From positions 1-42,132 of the forward strand of contig JABMNT010000101.1 of assembly GCA_013203595.1 (NCBI GenBank): a stretch of 42,132 nt of DNA. The letters run 5' to 3'. Positions 25,551 through 36,979 of the stretch are shown in pieces. The DNA is from Rhodospirillales bacterium (GTDB taxonomy: Bacteria > Pseudomonadota > Alphaproteobacteria > Rhodospirillales > Casp-alpha2). The notes beneath the pieces are model-generated. The model saw nothing but the letters and a program-made list of their open reading frames with translations. It was not told the origin of the DNA and did no database searches. The position numbers and the translations under genes are program-made. The stretch's first letter is position 1, and each line of letters begins with the position of its first letter.

Positions 25551-26678
25551 CTAGCGGGGCAGAATGGGCACGGTAACCGCCGGATCATTGCTCACCAGAG
25601 TTAACAGGAATGACTTAATGTCTTTCGCCTCGTCATCGGTCAGCGCCAGCGGCTTCATCGACCTGGAAAGACTTGGACGTTTGTAGCCACCGGTATTGTA
25701 ATGACTGATGACATCTTCCAGGCTGTGCAGGGATCCGTTATGCATGAACGGAGCTCTGGCCGGCAGGTTTCTCAGACCGGGGGTTTTGAAGGTATACTGC
25801 AGAGCCGGATTGTCCTTGAAAAACTCGCCCCGACCAATATCACCTTCAATTTTGATCATTGACCCATCCGCTGCTTTTTCTTCGCGTGCGTCATTGGGCA
25901 AGCCGATGTCATGCAAGCTGTCATCCGTGAAATTCCATCCGGAATGACACTCGCTGCAACGGGCTTTCGTATTGAAAAGCTCAAACCCACGCTTTGCCGA
26001 TGCGGAAATAGCGTCCTCGTCACCACCGACCCAAAGGTCAAAGGGGGCGATTGAGGAAATGACCGTGCGCTCGAATGTCGCAATGGCATTGGCTATGTTA
26101 TCAAGCGATATACCGGTGCCGGGGAAAGCGATGTTAAAAAGAACCTGATATCCTTTGACCTCTTCCAGCTCGGCGACCAGGGTTTCCAGATTCTGTGCCA
26201 TTTCCACACCGGCACCAACAGGGCCGAGGGCCTGCTCCTCGAGGGTATCAAAGCGACCGTCCCACATCAGAGGCTCGCTCCAGGCGAGGTTTAGAATTGT
26301 CGGAGTACGTCGACCCAAACGCCCCATTCCGGCGCCGAATCCCAATGAATGGCCGTCGCCCCAGCCCAGGCTCGGGTTATGGCAGAATGCACAGGTCAGC
26401 TGATTATTGCCCGACAGGCGCGGATCGAAAAACAGTTTCTTTCCCAATTCCGCCTTGTCCACTGAATAGGGATTGTCTTCCGGATAGGGCACCGATGTTG
26501 GCCGCTGATACTCGGCCTTCATTTCCGCCAGGGTTTTTGCGTTGGCCACCAGAGGTGAAGCCAGCGAACCGACACCGAAAGCCAGGGCCAGGAATCCGCC
26601 GATGCAGGTTCTGGTCAGGCGACCCGATACGGAGGTGATCTGCGTGTCGGGGGTTGTAGAGAATAAATTATCAAACAT
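25551..26678 (-). CDS. Diheme cytochrome c peroxidase (CcpA/MauG family)
   Basis: A 375-residue periplasmic protein with a long N-terminal export signal and two c-type heme sites, CAFCH (96-100) and CSECH (241-245). Family segments are ELGKKLFFDPRLSG, RRTPTILN, MWDGRFDTLEEQ, FKTPGLRNLPARAPFMHNG and HYNTGG. Most members reduce hydrogen peroxide to water with electrons from small cytochromes or cupredoxins; MauG instead modifies a partner protein. The WDGRFDTLEEQ context is shared by both groups, so the reaction is not certain. GGGAGA lies eight bases before ATG 26678. The start of its signal is longer than usual. Confidence 0.9.
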   Translation of the reverse strand: MFDNLFSTTPDTQITSVSGRLTRTCIGGFLALAFGVGSLASPLVANAKTLAEMKAEYQRPTSVPYPEDNPYSVDKAELGKKLFFDPRLSGNNQLTCAFCHNPSLGWGDGHSLGFGAGMGRLGRRTPTILNLAWSEPLMWDGRFDTLEEQALGPVGAGVEMAQNLETLVAELEEVKGYQVLFNIAFPGTGISLDNIANAIATFERTVISSIAPFDLWVGGDEDAISASAKRGFELFNTKARCSECHSGWNFTDDSLHDIGLPNDAREEKAADGSMIKIEGDIGRGEFFKDNPALQYTFKTPGLRNLPARAPFMHNGSLHSLEDVISHYNTGGYKRPSLSRSMKPLALTDDEAKDIKSFLLTLVSNDPAVTVPILPR

Positions 26679-26754
26679 AACTTTTGTCTCCCTAAGTTAA
26701 AATTCTGAGTCGAAACTTTCTGCGAAAGCTCCCAAAAAGTCATAAGGGCGCAGG

Positions 26755-27501
26755 CTAGTATTGCATGCGATAGTCATCGGGCAGGAACATGACACTGTCG
26801 GTTTTTTCGCCGTATTCCCGGTGGCATTCCATACAGAGCTGCTCGGAAAACTTTGCGTCACTGAAACCCGCTTTGGTAAATTTCCGGTTCGGGTGCACCA
26901 TGGTATAGCGCCAGTCACCGGTTTCTTTACGTGACCCATGTTTCAGCTTTTCCATGACAAAAGCCGGAGCAATGTCCACGCGCCCGCCATCACCATTAAC
27001 AACCAGACTGTACTTGATCAGAATGGCACCTTCCGGCATGACACCCGCTTCCTCATATTTCTGATATGATTGTGCCTTCTCGTTGGCAAAGTTCATGACG
27101 TAAATGGATTTGGCACTCAGGTCTTCGATAAATCGGTTGACGTGCGCCGATCGAAAGGGAGCCGAGCTGTAGTTTTTCCACTCCTTGAATGCGGTGCTGA
27201 CAAGCGGTCCACCATTGGTGAAGGCGGCCTGCATCAGGTCCTGTGTAAGACAGTTCCATACTCTGGTGGAATCTTTCATGCCAATTTCGGGCTCGTAATC
27301 TTCCACGTCCTCGCAAAAGGGAAGGTCGCCATCCTTTTCACATTTTGCGGCCTGATTCTGAATTTTCAGATATTCCGCCGCCAGTTTTTCCGATGAACAA
27401 TCGGCACTGGCTTCTGCGGCAATGCTACTGATCGCCAGCGCGGCGACTGTGAACAGAGCCAGTTTTTTTGAAGCCAGATTCTTTTTCAGAAACAACGACA
27501 T
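26755..27501 (-). CDS. Cytochrome P460-like monoheme c-type cytochrome
   Basis: A 248-residue exported protein with a signal peptide (about 1-33) and one heme motif near the C-terminus, CMECH (223-227). The arrangement HVNRFI, MNFANEKAQSYQKYEEAGVMPEGAILIKY, seen as pieces FANEKA and MPEGAILIKYS, and GDWRYTMV before the heme site is like cytochrome P460 and the related cytochrome c'-beta. P460 oxidises hydroxylamine and NO in ammonia oxidisers; c'-beta binds NO. Four extra cysteines (35, 54, 63, 84) in the N-terminal part may form two disulfides and are not a standard P460 feature. The crosslinking lysine of P460 cannot be assigned with certainty. Confidence 0.65.
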   Translation of the reverse strand: MSLFLKKNLASKKLALFTVAALAISSIAAEASADCSSEKLAAEYLKIQNQAAKCEKDGDLPFCEDVEDYEPEIGMKDSTRVWNCLTQDLMQAAFTNGGPLVSTAFKEWKNYSSAPFRSAHVNRFIEDLSAKSIYVMNFANEKAQSYQKYEEAGVMPEGAILIKYSLVVNGDGGRVDIAPAFVMEKLKHGSRKETGDWRYTMVHPNRKFTKAGFSDAKFSEQLCMECHREYGEKTDSVMFLPDDYRMQY

Positions 27502-27567
27502 TCCTAATCCCTTATACTATTTGACCATGAGCAACTTGTGAGGTCGAAATCCACATGCAGCGGGCGG

Positions 27568-28128
27568 TTACTGAGTCCCGTGCCTGAGGGCCACGGGGGG
27601 TTGTACGCCGGGGCCGGATTTCCGGTATTTCTGATGACAATTGGAGCAGGATTCCGTGACTTCCAGGTACTGGCCCAATATTTCCGATTTCTCGCCGTCG
27701 GCGCGGACCAGTTTGTAGAGGTCCTGGGTTTGTGCGTAGGAAAGCGCGGAGAGCTTCTCGAAATCATCCCAATTTGACCAGATATCGGCTTTCGCCTCGC
27801 TCGGCGGAGTCATATCCTTATTTTCAAACCACTTCACAATAAACCGGTTGGTGATTTGCAGGGCATCTGCATAGGCTTTCGCCACATTCTTATTATATTC
27901 CATCTTGCCGCGAAGCATGTCGCCCAGGTTTTCATGGGCCCGCGCCATGGACTGCATATTGTCCACACGCGCCCTGACCGCACCGGTTGCCATCTCGGCA
28001 GCGGCCGTCGGGGATGGCTGCACGAACGATGCAATGCCAAACGTCCATGCAAATAGAACAAGTGCGGTTTTTACCAACAGCACTTTTTTGAGTTTTGCCT
28101 TAAAAGAATTTGGTCGAATATTAGACAT
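27568..28128 (-). CDS. Cytochrome c' family protein
   Basis: A 186-residue exported protein with an N-terminal signal or anchor (about 16-44) and a four-helix-bundle body ending in the heme site CSNCHQKYR (161-169). This single C-terminal heme after three to four helices is the layout of cytochrome c', which binds NO, CO or, poorly, O2 and is tied to NO resistance. The C-terminal extension beyond the heme (about 17 residues) is a little longer than usual. It is the first gene of the second redox operon, with a strong GGGAGG ribosome site. Confidence 0.82.
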   Translation of the reverse strand: MSNIRPNSFKAKLKKVLLVKTALVLFAWTFGIASFVQPSPTAAAEMATGAVRARVDNMQSMARAHENLGDMLRGKMEYNKNVAKAYADALQITNRFIVKWFENKDMTPPSEAKADIWSNWDDFEKLSALSYAQTQDLYKLVRADGEKSEILGQYLEVTESCSNCHQKYRKSGPGVQPPVALRHGTQ

Positions 28129-28541: not shown

Positions 28542-30791
28542 CTACCTGGGTAAACCGCCAAACTGAACTTTCGGGACAACCGCCGTACCATGGTATCGAT
28601 GGCATGAAACGCAATCTGCACCCGCCTTCTCCGGCTGATGACAATCCAGGCAGATCGCCTTTTCAGGCTTGGCCATCTCCGATCGGATGGTTTGCATAGG
28701 TGTTGCCGACGCGACCTGGGGATCAGGAATGGCCTTGTTCAGGGTATGGCAGCTTCCGCATGTGCGTTTCTCGCCGACGCCCACATGCGGGCCATGGGCG
28801 AAATGGATCAGCTGGTCCCGGTTGCGGGTTGGCAGCGGAAAGGCGGTTGATGACGATTGCCACTGGCTGGCAAGGGGCCCCTGTGTGCCATGGCACTTGA
28901 GGCATTGGCCTGGTGCGCCCTTGTCAGCCAGTTGCTGGTGAAGGAACTGAGTCCATGGGGGTTGCGCGTCATTGGGGGGACCGGCAAGGGCAGCCAGCCA
29001 GGCCATGAAAAAACCGTCTTTGTGGGATGCCGGCCGGTAGCGAACCGCGTTGTCATGGAAATACCAGCCCTGATCCGGTTCCGCCAAAATGCTGGCTGCC
29101 TGAACCTGATCTGGTATGTCGCCCTGGATCGCCGCCCCGATCGTTGATTTTGTGTCACCGGGCAGCGCGCGTTCGGCAAACCACTTTTCCATGGCAGCCT
29201 CGATGTCCCGAATTTTCTGTTCATCGAGGATTGGTCCCCTCGCCTCACCCGGTTCCTCTGCAACGGCTGGCTCAGGCGGGACGGCGCTGACTTCGAGGAC
29301 GCTTTGCCGATCGGCATAATCCAGTTGCACCACATCTCCGGCGCGGTGGCGCCTGACTTCGTCTTGCAGATCAGGAAACCACACGGCAGTGGCCGCACGC
29401 ACCATATCACGGGGTGGCAGGCCGGAATGCGCGTTGCCGGCTGGTGTCGACCCGTCGCTTCCAGGGAACTGGTTTTGCAGGTGTTGGCGCTGGCTTGATA
29501 TGTCCATTAAATCCGCAAGAAGATATTTGATTGACCAGACAAGGGTCGTCACATCTTTGATTTGTGAGCTGTCGGCGTTCTCAAGATCGTTCAAAACCCG
29601 TCCGTCAAGCCGGTCCAGGCTATCGGCGACGCGTGAACTGCGCGACAACAGCGCCCGCATTACCGGCGGGAGGGTTAAGGTATCCGTTTGCGGCCACCAG
29701 CCAATGGCCGCGTTGTGGTCAGCCAGACTCTGCAAATCCAGCTCCGGAATCGCCAGAACCTCCAGCCCTTTCGGTCCCTGGATCAGATTTTCGGCGGTAA
29801 TCTGTTCAAGATGGCAGGATGCGCAGGACGAATCGAAGGGCTTGACGGTCATATCTTTGCCGGACGGCTGCAGGCTATGGCACTGACCGCAATTTTTCGG
29901 TTGCGGGTTTTTCGTGTGTTCCTGAAAGTGTTTTGTGAAATGCGAGCGGTGGTTAAACAGGGCCAGGGGATTTTCCTGGTTTACCCAATCAAATTCCGGA
30001 TGACCATCGGCAAAGGAGAGGAACGGCCTGGCGTGACAGGTCTGGCACTGGCCATCGGAAAAGGCGGTGAGCGTGCGCCTGCTTGCCCGGTGTTCCTTGT
30101 GGCAGGTGGCACAGGCGACCCCTTCCCGATCCGTAACATAGGTTGTAAACGGGGTTCGCCGAAAGCCGGCCCCCTGGCTGGCTGGGGCGCTGGCAAGCAG
30201 ATCCGCCGTCACCTTTTCCAGATTGGCGGCGGGCAACCCGTGTGGTCGCTCCGCGTTCACACCGGCATCGTGACAGGACTGGCATTTGGCGTTGGTATGG
30301 GCCACGGTGACGTCCTGGAAGGCGGCCTTTAGCCAGCCGAGGGGGCTTTCCAGGGAAACCGCGTGACAACTGATGCAGGTGTCAATGGTTGCATGGGACG
30401 GGCTTAACGGGGATGGCAGCAAAAGCGCCCCCCGGTCCTTCACAATAAAAATCAGTGACACACACAACAGGCTTATGAGCGTCGCCAGACGAACGACTTT
30501 GCCACGCATGCGCCGGCGCGAACGCACTGGCATGCAAGGGGGAACCGCCCGACAGCAGGTGCCGTCCGGCAGCGGGCCCGCGTCACAGACGCCGCCTGCC
30601 GATTCCGGCCGTGTGCAGCGCCAGCGCTCATTGATTTTTACCGGATCACATTCGAACCGGGTTTGGCAGTGACCGCCGCCATCGGGCCCGGACAGGCAGG
30701 CGTTGCCGGATGCCGCATAGCCGCATACCCAGTCCCTGTTGGGGCGATCATATCCGGTCCTGGAATTCGGGGCGGAAGCGTTGCCTGCCAT
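28542..30791 (-). CDS. Membrane-anchored decaheme c-type cytochrome with Cys-rich cytoplasmic head
   Basis: A 749-residue protein with ten CxxCH heme sites, starting at residues 139, 170, 227, 249, 301, 323, 630, 678, 714 and 727. Six lie in an N-terminal cluster and four in a C-terminal cluster, separated by about 300 heme-free residues that are largely helical. Before the single membrane helix (about 99-117) is a head of about 95 residues with nine cysteines (23, 32, 42, 48, 59, 69, 79, 80, 86) and a basic RSRRRMRGK stop, which by the positive-inside rule stays in the cytoplasm. The hemes would then be periplasmic. It is the last gene of the five-gene redox operon; its ATG overlaps the cytochrome b stop by one base. 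I know no named function for this architecture. Confidence 0.88.
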   Translation of the reverse strand: MAGNASAPNSRTGYDRPNRDWVCGYAASGNACLSGPDGGGHCQTRFECDPVKINERWRCTRPESAGGVCDAGPLPDGTCCRAVPPCMPVRSRRRMRGKVVRLATLISLLCVSLIFIVKDRGALLLPSPLSPSHATIDTCISCHAVSLESPLGWLKAAFQDVTVAHTNAKCQSCHDAGVNAERPHGLPAANLEKVTADLLASAPASQGAGFRRTPFTTYVTDREGVACATCHKEHRASRRTLTAFSDGQCQTCHARPFLSFADGHPEFDWVNQENPLALFNHRSHFTKHFQEHTKNPQPKNCGQCHSLQPSGKDMTVKPFDSSCASCHLEQITAENLIQGPKGLEVLAIPELDLQSLADHNAAIGWWPQTDTLTLPPVMRALLSRSSRVADSLDRLDGRVLNDLENADSSQIKDVTTLVWSIKYLLADLMDISSQRQHLQNQFPGSDGSTPAGNAHSGLPPRDMVRAATAVWFPDLQDEVRRHRAGDVVQLDYADRQSVLEVSAVPPEPAVAEEPGEARGPILDEQKIRDIEAAMEKWFAERALPGDTKSTIGAAIQGDIPDQVQAASILAEPDQGWYFHDNAVRYRPASHKDGFFMAWLAALAGPPNDAQPPWTQFLHQQLADKGAPGQCLKCHGTQGPLASQWQSSSTAFPLPTRNRDQLIHFAHGPHVGVGEKRTCGSCHTLNKAIPDPQVASATPMQTIRSEMAKPEKAICLDCHQPEKAGADCVSCHRYHGTAVVPKVQFGGLPR

Positions 30792-31612
30792 CAGGGCGTT
30801 CCCATGGAAAAGGCGTAAACGATCAGGATGTGGGTCAGGGAGAATACCATCAACGCAAACACCGACGATAAATGGATAAACAACCAGCCACGCAAAATGA
30901 CCTGGCGGCGATACTGGGCATCAAGGGTCCCGCGGGCCGCGATCAAGGTCCGGAGCCGGTTCAGGTTTTCCCGGTCGCCAGCACCGAGGCTCACGGGTGT
31001 TGCATCCAGGTGAGCAAGCAATTCAGTGGCCGTCGGCCGGCGTACAAACAAGGCTGACCATTGATTAAGGGGCTGGCTGAAAAAACCGTACCATTCGGTC
31101 TGGTAGGCGTTCAGAAATTCCCGGTCACCGGTCTCTTCGATAATCTTTAAAACCAATGCGTCGACATCCTTTGCCAGTTGTTTTCTGGCCACGGGAAATT
31201 CGCTGAACAGGATCCGCCCGTTTTCCTGATCAAGCTGCGCCGGCAGTGTGCGGGTCATCAGCCAGCCAAGCACGCCGCTCAGGGCAGTCACGACAAAGCT
31301 TGTCCATGCCGCCCCTTCCAGCCATCCGGAAGGCAGGCCGGTTCCTGCGTGAAAGAGAAAGACAACCACGGATATCAGCCCGACGACAAGGTGGGCAAGG
31401 CGCCAGAACCTGGCATCAATGAGCGGCAGCACCCGCAGTGATTTGCGGATGAAAAAGAACCCGAGAAAAATCAGGGCAACGGCCAGTATCCAACCGTCGT
31501 AATAATAGACGCCGCGCAGAGACTGGCTGGTTTGTCCGTGAAACCACACGAACGCAGTTAACAAAAGGGCCGTACAACCACTGACCAGAAGGATTTGCAG
31601 GTATCTGTTCAT
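30791..31612 (-). CDS. Diheme-type membrane cytochrome b
   Basis: A 273-residue integral membrane protein with about five helices (near 5-24, 40-57, 68-90, 99-118, and 242-268) and a soluble loop of about 115 residues between the fourth and fifth. Two helices each carry a pair of histidines 14 residues apart: HLVVGLISVVVFLFH and HLSSVFALMVFSLTH. That spacing is the classic way two b hemes are held across the membrane. It should pass electrons between the cytoplasmic iron-sulfur proteins and the periplasmic cytochromes. The start is ATG 31612, four bases after the upstream stop; a longer open frame only overlaps that gene. I recognise no named family beyond the general cytochrome b fold. Confidence 0.8.
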   Translation of the reverse strand: MNRYLQILLVSGCTALLLTAFVWFHGQTSQSLRGVYYYDGWILAVALIFLGFFFIRKSLRVLPLIDARFWRLAHLVVGLISVVVFLFHAGTGLPSGWLEGAAWTSFVVTALSGVLGWLMTRTLPAQLDQENGRILFSEFPVARKQLAKDVDALVLKIIEETGDREFLNAYQTEWYGFFSQPLNQWSALFVRRPTATELLAHLDATPVSLGAGDRENLNRLRTLIAARGTLDAQYRRQVILRGWLFIHLSSVFALMVFSLTHILIVYAFSMGTP

Positions 31613-31616
31613 GGCC

Positions 31617-33437
31617 CTACCGGAAAAGGTTGCCGACCTGGTCGGGCCGGTGCAAGTCAACGCGACTGAGCGCTCCGGTGGGACAGGCACGCACGCAGGC
31701 AGGCCCGCCTGATTTTCCCGTACATAAATCACATTTGGTCGCCCGCATTTCCTGGCTGCCGTCGGCTTTTAACAGGCGGTTTCCCTGGGAATCGTTGACC
31801 GCGACCATCTCGATATTTCCATAAGGGCAGGCATTGGCGCAGGTGCTGCAGCCAATACAACTGGCGTCCTCAATCAAAATCGCGCCACTCTCGGTGTCTC
31901 GGGAAATCGCCCCCGTGGGGCAACCGATAAGACAGACCGGATCAATGCAATGCATACAGGCGTTGGCGACCAGGAATGGCCCGTGGTTCTCTCCTTTTCG
32001 GACAAACCGCGGGTTGTTATCGTGGTTTTGCGCACAGGCGATCACACATTCGTCACATTCGACGCATTTTCGGTTATCGATCAGCATCGCCTGGGTGCCG
32101 TTTATCAGGCGTTTATCCACCAGGAAATCAAGCAGCGAGAAATTGCCGGCGGTCCCCTTTGTTCGGGGGGCCAGACTGGCCAGCTGCTGGCTATCCATGT
32201 TCGACAGGGTCTCCAGCAGCGGATCCACCGGAATCCGCAAAATGTCCGCATAGCCGAGTGCCCGGTAACTGTTTTGCCAGCTAAGCGCCGTTCCCGATTC
32301 CAGGTATTGGCGAATTTCGGCGCCACCGACAAAATCGTTTTTGCCTAAGTAGCCGACGGTTTGTTGGTGCCCGTCGCGGGTTTCAACGACGCGTACGAAG
32401 CCCGAGCGAATCAGACCGATTTCGTTGACGGCGGCGCCCTGCAAATAGATATCCTGCTCCAAGGGGGGGGGATTACCGGCCGATTCCTTGCCCTGTGATT
32501 GCCGCTGAAAGGCGGCTGTCCATTCGAAATTGCCATAACTTCCGTATTGAATATGGGCGATCAACCGCTGCAGGGAGGGCCCGTCCAATCCTTTGAACAG
32601 GTGGTTTTCAGCGACCTGAATTTCCAGGCCCCGCTCGCGGTACAGTTTATCCACATAAGCGCAAAAATAGCTGGACCAGCGCCTGAGTTCACGCAGGCCC
32701 TGCCAGCGCAGTTCAAAGACCTCGACCATGGGGCTGGCAACAAAAACGGTATTCTGTCGGGACGTCCGAGTCAGGGCGGCAATTTCTCCGAAAATGTCGC
32801 CCGGGCCGAGACAGAAGGTATCCTGATTTGCAATGACCTCGGCCACATCGGGCAGCATCCTGACCAGGGATTTACTTGCTTTTCTGGTGGCTTGACGCCG
32901 GTCCGGCCCCTGATAGGGGGACGTCGCTTGCCGGGTGCGCCGGTCCTGGCGCTTGCGGCGGGGCTGGTTTGCCCCTTTTTCCAGGATTGCGGTTTTCAGG
33001 ATGGAATCGCGACCATTGCCGTGATCTTCAATCCGGCCTGACTGGCGGCGTTCCGTGATTCTGGCATTTTGCCACAATTGTGCCAGGGACTTGAAGAAAG
33101 TAATCATTGTCTGCTGTTTTCGAACGGCGCTGCGCACTCGCCCCTGTCCGGGCGCCAGTCCTCTCAATTCGCCACTGAGAATAGCGAATACGGAGTGCCC
33201 GTAATCACCTTCCATGACGATCATTTCGCCCTCGAAAAACCTGCGAATTCGACCATGGTAGGCGAGGATGGATGCCAGGGGCGTTGTTGATGGAAACTCC
33301 GCGGGGTTTATGTCTTTGAACACCGGCGCCGCCAGCAGGCGCTCTATCTGCCCGGCGTCCAGCAGGCGGTCGCCAAAGGGATGGCCTCCCAGAACCACAG
33401 AATTCTCAGGTGAATTATCAGTCAGGATCCTGTTCAT
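31617..33437 (-). CDS. Cyclic-nucleotide-binding-domain / four-cluster ferredoxin fusion protein
   Basis: A 606-residue cytoplasmic protein with no signal or membrane helix. Residues about 55-255 form a first cyclic-nucleotide-binding-type domain, split by an insert of about 110 residues (95-205) rich in Arg, Lys and Gln; its phosphate cassette reads IFGEIAALTRTSRQNT, with Glu218 and Arg227 where cNMP binders need them. Residues about 275-415 form a second such domain whose cassette is degenerate (DFVGGAEIRQ). The C-terminal part (455-590) is a ferredoxin of the HycB/DmsB type with sixteen cysteines in four groups (458-468, 494-506, 527-537, 569-585), enough for four [4Fe-4S] clusters. It overlaps the c554 gene by four bases. 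The likely role is an electron relay whose activity responds to a nucleotide. Confidence 0.88.
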   Translation of the reverse strand: MNRILTDNSPENSVVLGGHPFGDRLLDAGQIERLLAAPVFKDINPAEFPSTTPLASILAYHGRIRRFFEGEMIVMEGDYGHSVFAILSGELRGLAPGQGRVRSAVRKQQTMITFFKSLAQLWQNARITERRQSGRIEDHGNGRDSILKTAILEKGANQPRRKRQDRRTRQATSPYQGPDRRQATRKASKSLVRMLPDVAEVIANQDTFCLGPGDIFGEIAALTRTSRQNTVFVASPMVEVFELRWQGLRELRRWSSYFCAYVDKLYRERGLEIQVAENHLFKGLDGPSLQRLIAHIQYGSYGNFEWTAAFQRQSQGKESAGNPPPLEQDIYLQGAAVNEIGLIRSGFVRVVETRDGHQQTVGYLGKNDFVGGAEIRQYLESGTALSWQNSYRALGYADILRIPVDPLLETLSNMDSQQLASLAPRTKGTAGNFSLLDFLVDKRLINGTQAMLIDNRKCVECDECVIACAQNHDNNPRFVRKGENHGPFLVANACMHCIDPVCLIGCPTGAISRDTESGAILIEDASCIGCSTCANACPYGNIEMVAVNDSQGNRLLKADGSQEMRATKCDLCTGKSGGPACVRACPTGALSRVDLHRPDQVGNLFR

Positions 33438-34489
33438 TTTGCTGCCGGTCCAGCGGTTGCGGGCGCTTTGATTGTTGGCTGGAAAACCTGTCCCCGATAC
33501 GCCGCAGGTTTGGGCAGGAACCGATCCATCCGCTCAAATTCGCCGATTTCATCCTTCAAGTCCATGGCCTCCATCAGTTCGGCCACCCGGTCCGCCGCCG
33601 CCAGCAGCGGGATCTGGTTGTCAAAGATCAAAAGCTCGCTGGTTACCGCGTTTGCGACCGTCTGCATTTCCGGGATGCCCGGAAACGCCCCTGCCAGCAA
33701 TTCTATTTTTTTGCGCGATGCGACAATCCGCTCCGCCAGGCGGCTGGCATAGGGACCTGAGGCGCGGGCCTTGGCGAGGGCGCGTAAAGACATTTCAAGT
33801 TCCAGAACCAGGCCGGTTACAAACATTTTTCGAAGTAAATCGCCGTCGGCGGGCGGATTGGCCAGACCTCGGTTGTACCACAGATTATGGCGCACCTCGC
33901 CCTGACTCCAGGCCACCAGTTCAAACCGCCGGTCATCGGGGTGGCCTCCCTGGTTGATTAGTTTTTCGTCGTCAATGACATGGCATTCATAGCAGCGCCG
34001 GGTCCAGGATCGGATCGCATAGGGGCGTATCATGCCTTTGGCTTCCGCAGTCTGCCATCTGCTGATCGCTTCCTGCATGGATTCCGTATTCGATTTTTTG
34101 CCACTGTAACTGTTATGGACCTTAATCCAATCTGCTGCCGGGTTATGGCACGATTCACAGGAGACGCCGGCGATCGGTAACAGGATATCCCCCCATGCCT
34201 GATGGGTGGTATGGCAGGAACCGCAAAGTTTCGCGGTTTTGATCTTCTTGATATTGAGCTTTTTTGCAATTGCCAATGCCTTGTCGCTGCTTGGTAATTC
34301 GCTAAAGGATTTCGCATGGCGCGAGCCTTTCCAGGCTTTTGCCAGTTCAACATGGCATTCGGCGCAGGCGTTGGGGCCCTTTATCCTGGCAGAATCAAAT
34401 TGCGGAGCGGCTACTGCGATCTGTTGACTTGCCACCATTGACCCGACCATCAACAGGGCAACGCACAGCGGCTTGCTCAGATTACGCAT
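33434..34489 (-). CDS. Tetraheme cytochrome c554-type protein
   Basis: A 351-residue periplasmic protein with a signal peptide (about 1-28) and four CxxCH sites: CAECH (42), CGSCH (89), CESCH (111) and CYECH (166). The opening GPNACAECHVELAKAWKGSRHAKSF, given by pieces CAECHVELAKAW and SRHAKSF, is typical of the cytochrome c554 family, whose Nitrosomonas member takes electrons from hydroxylamine oxidoreductase. A helical C-terminal half of about 170 residues follows. No hao gene is present. ATG 34489 overlaps the reductase stop by eight bases (ATGCGTAA); a GTG at 34504 is in frame but less likely. Confidence 0.87.
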   Translation of the reverse strand: MRNLSKPLCVALLMVGSMVASQQIAVAAPQFDSARIKGPNACAECHVELAKAWKGSRHAKSFSELPSSDKALAIAKKLNIKKIKTAKLCGSCHTTHQAWGDILLPIAGVSCESCHNPAADWIKVHNSYSGKKSNTESMQEAISRWQTAEAKGMIRPYAIRSWTRRCYECHVIDDEKLINQGGHPDDRRFELVAWSQGEVRHNLWYNRGLANPPADGDLLRKMFVTGLVLELEMSLRALAKARASGPYASRLAERIVASRKKIELLAGAFPGIPEMQTVANAVTSELLIFDNQIPLLAAADRVAELMEAMDLKDEIGEFERMDRFLPKPAAYRGQVFQPTIKAPATAGPAAK

Positions 34490-35753
34490 CGACGACAATA
34501 TCACCGACCGGAAAAGCCACGCAGGCCAGGCAGGTTCCGGTTTCCGGCTTGAAGCCGGGCGGTCGCAAATATTCGACGCGGCCCTCTTTCAGGGTGGTAA
34601 CGCAAGTGCCACAATTTCCGGCACGACACCCGACCGGGATTTTAATGTTACCGGCTTCGGCAAGTTCGAGCACGGTGCCGTCCCCTTCCTGCCAGTTCAA
34701 TAATTGTGCCGAACGGGAGAAACGGACACCGCATGCAGCGCCCTGGGATTCCTGCAGGCGCGAACGCAGCGCCTTGAGCAGGTCCTGGTTGAAGGCCTCG
34801 TAATTGACGTCGGCCTTGGGTACCCCCCAGTCATACAGCCCGGGGATGATCTTTTCCATGAGCCCGGACGGCCCGCACACATAGAACTGGTAATTGGTTG
34901 AGCCAAGCTGTTCCTGCAGCGTCTTGATGGACAGATGACGGGACGTGGTGGAGGCTTCATCGGTTGCCTGGCTTAAGACCATGGTGACATGAATTTGCGG
35001 ATGCAGCTCAGCCATTTCCTGCAATTGCCGGCTCCATATCTGGTCGTCTTTGTTTCTGGCACAGTAAAAGAGATGGGTCTGGCGTATCTGGGTGGCCTCG
35101 GCCACCTGATGAAGCATACTCATTAACGGTGTGATGCCGACCCCTCCGCCAATAAGGACCAGAGGCTTTTCAGAAATTTCATCGAGCGCAAATGCACCTG
35201 TAGGAGCAATCACATCGACAATATCGCCAACTGCCAGGTTATGCATAAAGCCCGATGCTGTCGGTACTTCCTGACCGTCGGCATCGCGGTGCGGTGCCAG
35301 CTTTTTAACACTGACCTGGTAAAAAGCACGATTCCCCGGACTGCTCGAAATCGAATAGCATCTGACAACCACGCCACGTCCCGGCACGCGAAGCACGAAC
35401 GTCAGATACTGACCGGCTCTGAAAGGCGGTATGGATTTACCGTCATGGGGCACCAGCTGGAACGAACAGATAGAGCCGCTGGCGTTTTCAACGGCTTTAT
35501 CAATAATCCGAAACTTACGTTTTCCGACCCAGGTCTGGGCCGCCTGTTCGCGTCTTTGCTGCTCGAACTGAATGAGCGTTTCGGCTTTTGCCTGAAAAAC
35601 ATTGAGCTCGAGATCGCGCCGTTGGCGGGCAACGCGAAACCGGGATATCTCCCGGATGGCCGAAAAACAGACCTCCGCAGCAATGGCGACGAAAACGACA
35701 GCTGCCCCGATTTCAAAAATATCCAGCACGTTTATTCCTGCATCAATTCGCAT
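34482..35753 (-). CDS. Membrane-anchored NAD(P)H flavin reductase with C-terminal [2Fe-2S] ferredoxin domain
   Basis: A 423-residue oxidoreductase. One N-terminal helix (about 10-32) anchors it, followed by a charged coiled-coil-like stretch (33-75). The FAD domain shows RCYSISSS (131-138), the nicotinamide domain GGGVGITP (202-209) and CGPSG (293-297), and the C-terminal ferredoxin has Cys376, Cys381, Cys384 and Cys408. This is the layout of the hybrid-cluster-protein reductase / phenol hydroxylase reductase group, plus an anchor. It would take electrons from NADH or NADPH to its iron-sulfur cluster and pass them on; a reverse flow to NAD is also possible. It is first in the five-gene operon, 155 bases after the OmpA-type gene. 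Confidence 0.9.
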   Translation of the reverse strand: MRIDAGINVLDIFEIGAAVVFVAIAAEVCFSAIREISRFRVARQRRDLELNVFQAKAETLIQFEQQRREQAAQTWVGKRKFRIIDKAVENASGSICSFQLVPHDGKSIPPFRAGQYLTFVLRVPGRGVVVRCYSISSSPGNRAFYQVSVKKLAPHRDADGQEVPTASGFMHNLAVGDIVDVIAPTGAFALDEISEKPLVLIGGGVGITPLMSMLHQVAEATQIRQTHLFYCARNKDDQIWSRQLQEMAELHPQIHVTMVLSQATDEASTTSRHLSIKTLQEQLGSTNYQFYVCGPSGLMEKIIPGLYDWGVPKADVNYEAFNQDLLKALRSRLQESQGAACGVRFSRSAQLLNWQEGDGTVLELAEAGNIKIPVGCRAGNCGTCVTTLKEGRVEYLRPPGFKPETGTCLACVAFPVGDIVVDA

Positions 35754-35908: not shown

Positions 35909-36505
35909 TTACCAGATGGTGATTTCGACCCGTCGGTTCTCCGGTTCGTCAACGTTGTCCACTGTCTTGACGATCAGATCCTTCTCACCATGCGAGCGGG
36001 CGTCGATGCGCTCGGCATTCAGACCTGCCGCGATGATTATCTTTCGGATCTCTTCAGCACGCAGCAAGGCCAGCCGGAAATTTACATCCGCGTCGCCGAC
36101 GGTATCGGAATGACCAATAATTGTCGCCCGCGCCTGCTTGCGGTTGGCGAAGGATGCGGCAATTTTGCCGATCTCGGCCCGGGACTCTTCTGTCAGGGTC
36201 GATGTTCCTGTCAGGAAGTACAGGAGGAAGCGTTCAGGCGGCACAGGAGCCGCATCAAGGGCCTTTCCGAAGGTGGCGCGAATTTGTTCCTGTGAAATGG
36301 CCTTTGGCGGGGTTGGCGGTGACTCCTGATTGAGCACGTTAACGCCTGTATTCGCCGTCTCCAGTACCTGGGAACCGGCGGCAGTGGAGACAACAATGCG
36401 ACCAACGCTGCCGTCTGCTTCGTCGAGCAGGACAACCAGGTTCCCTGGCTCCGGAATAAATACGGCAGCGGCAAGCCAGAGCAGGAAAAGGCTTATCGGT
36501 TCCAT
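35909..36505 (-). CDS. OmpA-type peptidoglycan-binding protein
   Basis: A 198-residue protein with a short N-terminal hydrophobic segment (about 4-17), a linker, and a C-terminal OmpA-like domain (about 85-198). Diagnostic pieces are GHSDTVGDADVNFRLALLRAEEI, seen as HSDTVGDADVN and LLRAEEIRKI, then HGEKDLIV and the ending ENRRVEITIW. The Asp and Arg that hold diaminopimelate in OmpA have counterparts here. It would tether a membrane complex to the cell wall. It follows the FecR-domain gene by nine bases, so they are an operon, and precedes the redox operon in the same direction. Confidence 0.88.
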   Translation of the reverse strand: MEPISLFLLWLAAAVFIPEPGNLVVLLDEADGSVGRIVVSTAAGSQVLETANTGVNVLNQESPPTPPKAISQEQIRATFGKALDAAPVPPERFLLYFLTGTSTLTEESRAEIGKIAASFANRKQARATIIGHSDTVGDADVNFRLALLRAEEIRKIIIAAGLNAERIDARSHGEKDLIVKTVDNVDEPENRRVEITIW

Positions 36506-36514
36506 GATACCCTC

Positions 36515-36979
36515 CTATTCAGCGACTTGGATCAGAAGGCGCGTGCCTCTGATGCCGATGGTTGCCAGAGGGGTGGAGATCTTGACATCTTCAGGCGACA
36601 GCTTGGCGATACGCCCCGACAAATACATGGCGGTTCCTTTCAGAAAATGAACAGCAAACCCCAGTTTTTCGTCCTGTGGTACAAAGATGAACGCGTCGAT
36701 TTCCATGTAGCTGTCAGAACCCAGTGACAGGGTGCTGCCATCAATAAATGTAATCCCCACTGCGCCCTGGCTGTCGGTTTCGAACTCATCGCCCTGAAAA
36801 ACGATGCCGCCCAGTGCAGCGCTTTCGCGTGCATCGCCGCGAATCACAAAGGTCCCCGCATCCAGCGTTTTTATCTCGCCTATGCCACCGTCGGGTAATT
36901 CTGCGTGAGCGCTATTAATGTCGCCAACCAGCATCACAGGAACAAGGAACAGGGCCATCAGGGTTCGAATCATCGTCAT
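36515..36979 (-). CDS. Exported FecR-domain protein
   Basis: A 154-residue protein with a signal peptide (about 1-27, cleavage near AHAE) and a FecR-type domain: a GTFVIRGDARESAALGGIVFQGD segment, ending with pieces VFQGDEFETDSQG and ITFIDGSTLSLGSDS, then VKISTPLATIGIRGT. In FecR itself this domain relays an outer-membrane signal to a sigma factor; single-domain exported versions like this have no membrane helix or anti-sigma part, and their role is unknown. The ATG has AGGTGGG eight bases upstream. It leads the OmpA-type gene. Confidence 0.82.
   Translation of the reverse strand: MTMIRTLMALFLVPVMLVGDINSAHAELPDGGIGEIKTLDAGTFVIRGDARESAALGGIVFQGDEFETDSQGAVGITFIDGSTLSLGSDSYMEIDAFIFVPQDEKLGFAVHFLKGTAMYLSGRIAKLSPEDVKISTPLATIGIRGTRLLIQVAE

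Follow-up and report, generated by a model that had tools for sequence, protein, structure and literature searches.

We describe a five-gene unit in the genome of a Rhodospirillales bacterium that, on balance, we read as the inner-membrane half of a PCC4-type electron conduit, a porin-less derivative that would link NAD(P)H with periplasmic redox partners. PCC4 is a putative porin-cytochrome cluster described in silico by He, Barco, Emerson and Roden (He et al., 2017, Front Microbiol 8:1584, PMC5566968). The unit occupies positions 28542-35753 of a 42,132-nucleotide stretch of DNA (contig JABMNT010000101.1; "the window" below means this whole stretch), where five intact open reading frames (ORFs) that touch or overlap lie on the minus strand. 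The genes, and a cysteine-rich (Cys-rich) segment encoded in the last of them, are as follows.

35753-34482, minus strand: reductase of 423 amino acids (aa), recognized by Pfam matches and cysteine positions, with a hydrophobic N-terminal transmembrane (TM) segment at residues 15-33
34489-33434, minus strand: secreted tetraheme c554-type cytochrome with an ATG start and four CxxCH motifs (Cytochrome_C554, 1.2e-13)
33437-31617, minus strand: fusion of cyclic-nucleotide-binding-type (cNMP) and 4x[4Fe-4S] iron-sulfur (FeS) modules (cNMP_binding, 6.9e-19, in two stretches; Fer4_11, 4.8e-12)
31612-30791, minus strand: cytochrome b (the "IMP" of PCC4) with an ATG start, 273 aa, five TM segments, two WX3HX13H motifs and an SGXXG motif
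30791-28542, minus strand: anchored decaheme cytochrome with ten CxxCH motifs, a TM segment at residues 99-117 and an N-terminal Cys-rich segment
30531..30755, minus strand: Cys-rich segment of the decaheme protein, approximately residues 13-87, with C23, C32, C42 and C48 followed by C59, C69, C79 and C86

The reductase and tetraheme genes overlap by 8 bases, the tetraheme and cNMP/FeS genes by 4 and the cytochrome b and decaheme genes by 1, and a gap of 4 bases separates the cNMP/FeS and cytochrome b genes. These figures reproduce those of an earlier note on this DNA, and Pfam matches and motif counts agree with the domains that it assigned to all five proteins; it overlooked the TM anchor of the decaheme protein and the Cys-rich segment that precedes it. 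An alternative GTG start at 34504 is possible for the tetraheme gene. A longer cytochrome b ORF from a GTG at 31732 was discarded, as it overlaps the cNMP/FeS gene and homologues align from the ATG at 31612. No curated name is available for any of the five proteins because all of their NCBIfam matches fall below the cut-offs. A tblastn search of plasmids gave no match.

The comparison with PCC4 is based on heme counts, motifs, domains and gene order. In common with PCC4 as set out by He et al. (2017), the window encodes a tetraheme and a decaheme cytochrome and an IMP with five TM segments, paired WX3HX13H motifs (W70-H74-H88 and W243-H247-H261) and SGXXG (S112-G113-G116). As in PCC4 Subgroup II, a Fer4_11 (PF13247) gene lies upstream of the IMP gene and a redox gene, here the reductase, lies upstream of the tetraheme gene. 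Because the window has all of the inner-half features listed there for PCC4, the statement of the earlier note that no described complex has such a set was wrong. In contrast to PCC4, neither the pentaheme cytochrome nor the outer-membrane porin was detected in the window genome, and since these two defining features were searched for and not found we place the unit as a relative or variant of PCC4 and not as a member. Two further differences are that He et al. (2017) link the IMP to quinone, whereas the gene fusion described below favors entry via NAD(P)H, and that the available part of their text makes no mention of a Cys-rich segment in the decaheme protein. PCC4-type conduits are published as a prediction, their function likewise being predicted, and the name has hardly been taken up since 2017, appearing in just one further paper of the literature searched.

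Relatives of the unit are widespread. A search with the cytochrome b gave 37 matches in 289 genomes of the same class, which was assigned as Alphaproteobacteria from the sequence identity between its locus L035 and L056, a named alphaproteobacterial contig; the N-terminal part of the cNMP/FeS protein, compared with 84,980 species genomes, identified 300 stretches that encode a relative. Hosts among the best 80 of these 300 are Alphaproteobacteria, Gammaproteobacteria, Planctomycetota, Verrucomicrobiota, Nitrospinota, Nitrospirota, SAR324, Zixibacteria, Latescibacterota, Poribacteria, Omnitrophota, Elusimicrobia and others. The order c554-cNMP/FeS-cytochrome b-decaheme is fixed in the fetched neighborhoods, and most of them also encode the reductase together with a 5-heme (pentaheme) protein (~600 aa) and a ~500-aa protein that has a signal peptide. 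Across 90 distinct loci, chosen by cNMP/FeS or cytochrome b, the cNMP/FeS gene is present in 90, and the others in at least 86 (cytochrome b), 83 (decaheme), 75 (reductase), 73 (c554), 49 (pentaheme) and 46 (porin); as many contigs end early, these are minimum counts. Adjacent pairs include cytochrome b-decaheme (82 loci), cNMP/FeS-cytochrome b (77), c554-cNMP/FeS (69) and pentaheme-porin (44). The assignment of the ~500-aa protein as a porin draws on a C-terminal Phe in 40 of its 46 copies, the usual signature of outer-membrane barrels; a hydrophobic-moment test was uninformative as to a beta barrel.

Such co-conservation rules out chance or artefact as the origin of the five-gene set. The earlier note had allowed that homologues might be scattered and never co-occur; they stand together in dozens of loci in many phyla. 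The view that the genes are one co-inherited electron-transfer unit is supported by these comparisons, and we infer that the proteins may act in a single complex. An architecture that was tentative in 2017 is now seen across many phyla.

The outer-membrane half was sought throughout the window genome, which has an estimated completeness of 100% in 288 contigs. Neither single-sequence nor profile searches of this genome matched the pentaheme protein or the PCC4-type porin, the porin profile being run without whole-genome controls. The MtrB/PioB porin family (PF11854) also gave no match there, with a control set positive in only 1 of 14 genomes. Applied to 21 other genomes, the pentaheme profile matched 20, two of them weakly. 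Three of the 21 (G265, G107 and G229), which have the gene at the locus, served as positive controls. The other 18 are without a copy in the fetched locus; among these, the match elsewhere is strong in 15 and weak in two (G299 and G304), and G300 has none. The pentaheme protein is present in 3/3 genus mates, in a family mate (G309) and in an order mate (G331), and the clusters of genus, family and order mates are complete wherever the contig permits. A second genome of the order, G343 (99% complete), has only reductase, cNMP/FeS, cytochrome b and decaheme genes at the locus and no pentaheme match in the genome, and G552 has the five genes with no pentaheme-porin pair at its locus, the region covered in that case. 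A sixth gene of porin-cytochrome type, as predicted earlier for the outer membrane, is found as this pair in most relatives and is not detected in the window genome. The porin-less state is apparently new for PCC4.

The window copy and the two just described without a neighboring pair, in G343 and G552, are divergent. These three copies (window and loci L163 and L208) form the three longest branches of the cNMP/FeS tree (2.73, 1.62 and 1.82, respectively; median 0.51). The two longest of the cytochrome b tree are the window (2.38) and L163 (1.51), with L208 at 1.44 (median 0.66). The window and L163 retain all heme motifs, heme-b ligands, FeS cysteines and the eight cysteines of the Cys-rich segment; L208 retains the heme, heme-b and FeS ligands and the eight cysteines, and is changed at W70, E218 and a few reductase residues. 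Rapid change with ligands kept would fit a changed partner better than decay. Placing the three copies in one clade is compatible with the data (approximately unbiased (AU) test, p 0.87 and 0.80), with long-branch attraction possible, and we did not adopt this clade as an established grouping, as the tests permit it without demonstrating it.

The proteins predicted at the cytosolic face point to NAD(P)H. The reductase matches NAD_binding_1 (6.5e-19), Fer2 (7.8e-12) and FAD_binding_6 (1.9e-5) and has plant-type [2Fe-2S] cysteines at 376, 381, 384 and 411; in this type of flavin reductase, NAD(P)H donates hydride and single electrons pass on to a 2Fe-2S center. The cNMP/FeS protein combines its two cNMP stretches with 16 Fer4 cysteines (four [4Fe-4S] clusters), which are invariant among the homologues compared. 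Its first cNMP domain has an intact phosphate-binding cassette and the second is degenerate. Because the cassette residues G217, E218, R224 and R227 are kept, and are invariant in 18 homologues, binding of a ligand by the first domain is plausible, as is nucleotide regulation through it. This agrees with the built-in regulation envisaged earlier; a complete route to the surface is not demonstrated, because the outer-membrane part was not found.

Distant sister clusters in other alphaproteobacteria (L051, L205-L207, L209 and L210) encode a cNMP/FeS protein of about 800 aa, a cytochrome b and a 10-heme protein that are homologous to those of the window and in the same order. In L206, unlike the window, the cNMP/FeS protein carries a fused flavin/NAD module, and the decaheme protein has an FHA domain in the position of the Cys-rich segment. 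Because this natural FAD/NAD-cNMP/FeS fusion is followed by the homologous cytochrome b and decaheme genes, it strengthens the case for the coupling to NAD(P)H that the earlier note had proposed and independently supports the order suggested below for the cytosolic modules. Another decaheme protein, which contains LVIVD repeats, is encoded nearby in L206.

The cytochrome b is conserved at the positions expected to hold hemes, with W70, H74, H88, G113, G116, W243, H247 and H261 invariant in 74 homologues. An AlphaFold model (predicted local distance difference test score, pLDDT, 91) places the ligand histidines on helix 67-89 and on the last long helix, 211-268, which is preceded by a long helical insert. 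The HX13H pairs on two helices resemble those of ferric-reductase-type and cytochrome b TM domains, from which the protein differs by this insert and by the lack of an accepted Pfam match. Neither Pfam nor NCBIfam gave an NrfD match, and with two heme-b motifs instead it is unlike the NrfD-type subunits of ACIII and Qrc-type menaquinol modules. Sequence searches of the PDB with the cytochrome b, the porin and the Cys-rich segment gave nothing usable (the tetraheme protein matched cytochrome c554, 1bvb, at 6e-7), and Foldseek found nothing significant with models of the cytochrome b and decaheme proteins. A structural ranking of the cytochrome b returned STEAP1 (Z 9.1, root-mean-square deviation 4.1, 152 residues aligned), at a Z similar to the helical-bundle background, and cytochrome b6 (1q90, Z 8.9), inside the range regarded by the tool as unspecific for helical bundles; with Z at background level the ranking yields no family, and we rejected it as a family assignment.

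All heme motifs of the decaheme protein are invariant, and the eight cysteines of its N-terminal segment are >=90% conserved, in 72 homologues. The cysteines form two tandem C-x8-C-x9-C-x5-C-x-P repeats before the TM segment, a pattern found in ~80 loci; one repeat is present in L131, part is lost in L036 and none occurs in L107 and L121. Pfam gave no domain for the segment and the PDB no match. Its residues are modeled mostly at pLDDT 76-94, compared with 77 for the whole protein. The segment is probably cytosolic, because the charged sequence RSRRRMRGK stands immediately before the TM segment (positive-inside rule). Its replacement by an FHA domain in the sister system hints at a position for docking or regulation, where electron transfer may not be obligatory. 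This conserved and probably cytosolic eight-cysteine segment is apparently new.

Gene content, intactness, ligand conservation and co-conservation are observed; from the protein families we propose the following electron path. In the anchored reductase, electrons would be exchanged between NAD(P)H, FAD and the [2Fe-2S] center, and this center would exchange with the four [4Fe-4S] clusters of the cNMP/FeS protein on the cytosolic face of the membrane. At the membrane face, electrons are relayed by 4x[4Fe-4S] proteins of the ferredoxin type; cytochromes b with paired HX13H motifs carry two hemes across the membrane, and multiheme cytochromes distribute electrons in the periplasm. The clusters would thus communicate with the two b hemes spanning the inner membrane, these with the anchored decaheme protein in the periplasm, and the latter with the tetraheme c554-type carrier. 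The FeS protein would probably be gated by a cyclic-nucleotide-like ligand held in the first cNMP domain. Most relatives would extend this route outward by way of the pentaheme cytochrome and a barrel in the outer membrane. In the window organism it most likely ends in the periplasm, because no pentaheme-porin pair was detected, and may serve soluble redox partners there; the cytochrome c', P460-like and MauG-like proteins encoded at 25551-28128, which are not conserved neighbors, are candidates. More tentatively, and as something we would not expect to hold in full, the conduit may have been reduced to its inner half and given a new role as a nucleotide-gated exchanger of electrons between NAD(P)H and periplasmic partners; porin-less copies would evolve fast once freed from the outer-membrane partner, and the eight-cysteine segment would bind metal or FeS and dock the decaheme protein to the cytosolic modules.

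Two alternatives concern how the chain operates. The cytochrome b could exchange electrons with the quinone pool, the reductase and FeS protein being a side branch or feeders of that pool. This is how He et al. (2017; PMC5566968) model the PCC4 IMP, and the protein has two heme-b motifs, like the cytochrome b of bc1, and the weak, background-range match to cytochrome b6. We consider it rather unlikely, given a reductase in 75 of the 90 loci and a cNMP/FeS protein in all 90 (which were selected partly by that protein), and a sister fusion of flavin, cNMP and FeS modules that speaks for NAD(P)H as partner on the cytosolic side. Reverse operation, compatible with the NAD(P)H-linked inner half that we favor, would draw on a donor in the periplasm or outside the cell and drive its electrons inward to reduce NAD(P), as in lithotrophic uptake. 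The chain is reversible in principle and the cNMP gate could control direction; PCC4 is also reported from Zetaproteobacteria and other iron-oxidizer settings, with flow drawn inward (He et al., 2017; PMC5566968). However, the uphill step to NAD(P) needs energy coupling and the cluster has no ion-pumping subunit. Many hosts also belong to groups, such as Opitutaceae and Planctomycetes, that are mainly known as heterotrophs, and inward flow seems rather unlikely.

The other alternatives concern the missing half. The operon might be a remnant that, having lost the outer-membrane half, is under relaxed selection and decaying. The long branches of the window, L163 and L208 copies are in line with this, but the five ORFs with their tight overlaps, and cofactor ligands retained fully in the window and L163 and nearly so in L208, are unexpected under decay and make it improbable. 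Least probable, to the point of being a slim chance, is that the pentaheme and porin genes fell into an assembly gap. The assembly is in pieces, and most other genomes without a local pentaheme gene carry one elsewhere; against this stand the completeness estimate, the uniformly empty searches, the placement of the operon inside its contig, with OmpA and FecR genes upstream and no contig end, and the absence of the pentaheme protein from G343, another divergent copy. Several points nevertheless weigh against a porin-less, NAD(P)H-linked inner half: the long branches could reflect decay instead of a new role, an outer-membrane partner from an unrelated family is possible (the searches covered the PCC4 pair and MtrB/PioB), the completeness of a genome in 288 contigs is an estimate, and no solved structure matching the cytochrome b (PDB sequence and Foldseek searches) or the Cys-rich segment (PDB sequence searches) was found.

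The unit resembles MtrCAB, MtoAB and PioAB in having a decaheme cytochrome as part of a conduit between cell and exterior. It differs in that the decaheme protein is anchored in the inner membrane, in that no MtrB/PioB-family porin was found in the genome, and in that the inner-membrane partner is a di-heme-type cytochrome b with FeS and flavin modules, and not CymA. Textbook routes of extracellular electron transfer lack both the NAD(P)H module and the putative nucleotide-binding gate of this architecture. A natural porin-less version separates the inner from the outer half, and would allow the entry point, gating and direction of the five-gene unit to be studied apart from a surface conduit.

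Acidic repeats of the form D(D/S/E/G)(L/I)L, often DDLLGG, occur in the linker that separates hemes 6 and 7 of the decaheme protein and in the pentaheme N-termini of many complete clusters (L032, L034, L076, L077, L102, L103, L108, L115, L118 and others); this is apparently new. Linkers contain 108 repeats (36.5 after shuffling) and pentaheme N-termini 85 (8.9 after shuffling). In the other cluster proteins the repeats do not exceed the shuffled level, save for an approximately twofold excess in the reductase and cNMP/FeS proteins, and the decaheme linker of the window has none. Occurrence in the linker and in the pentaheme N-terminus is correlated (Fisher p 2e-4), but each trait changes only four times on the tree, so that independence is not established and we do not treat the association as independent. 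The repeats are possibly a tether joining the inner- and outer-membrane cytochromes.

A variant with a short decaheme linker (~99 aa) occurs at L075, L083, L089, L095, L096, L097, L122, L123 and L132, and most of these loci carry a divergent 3-heme gene on the opposite strand. Genomes with this variant include G300 and G299, which have no pentaheme match and only a weak one, respectively. L096 bears the record title Klebsiella, groups with Verrucomicrobia and is probably a mislabelled bin.

The cytochrome c', P460-like monoheme and MauG-like diheme peroxidase genes are consecutive and stand 413 bases downstream of the decaheme gene. We dropped them as parts of the system, as they have no match beside the clusters of relatives. 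Directly upstream of the operon (35909-36979) are genes with FecR and OmpA domains, which were also dropped, having one distant match each beside such clusters; the pentaheme and porin genes occupy this position in genus mate G307 and family mate G309. Genome G287 has two PCC4-type clusters, L043 and L044, the latter with a divergent c554-porin-pentaheme set on the opposite strand.

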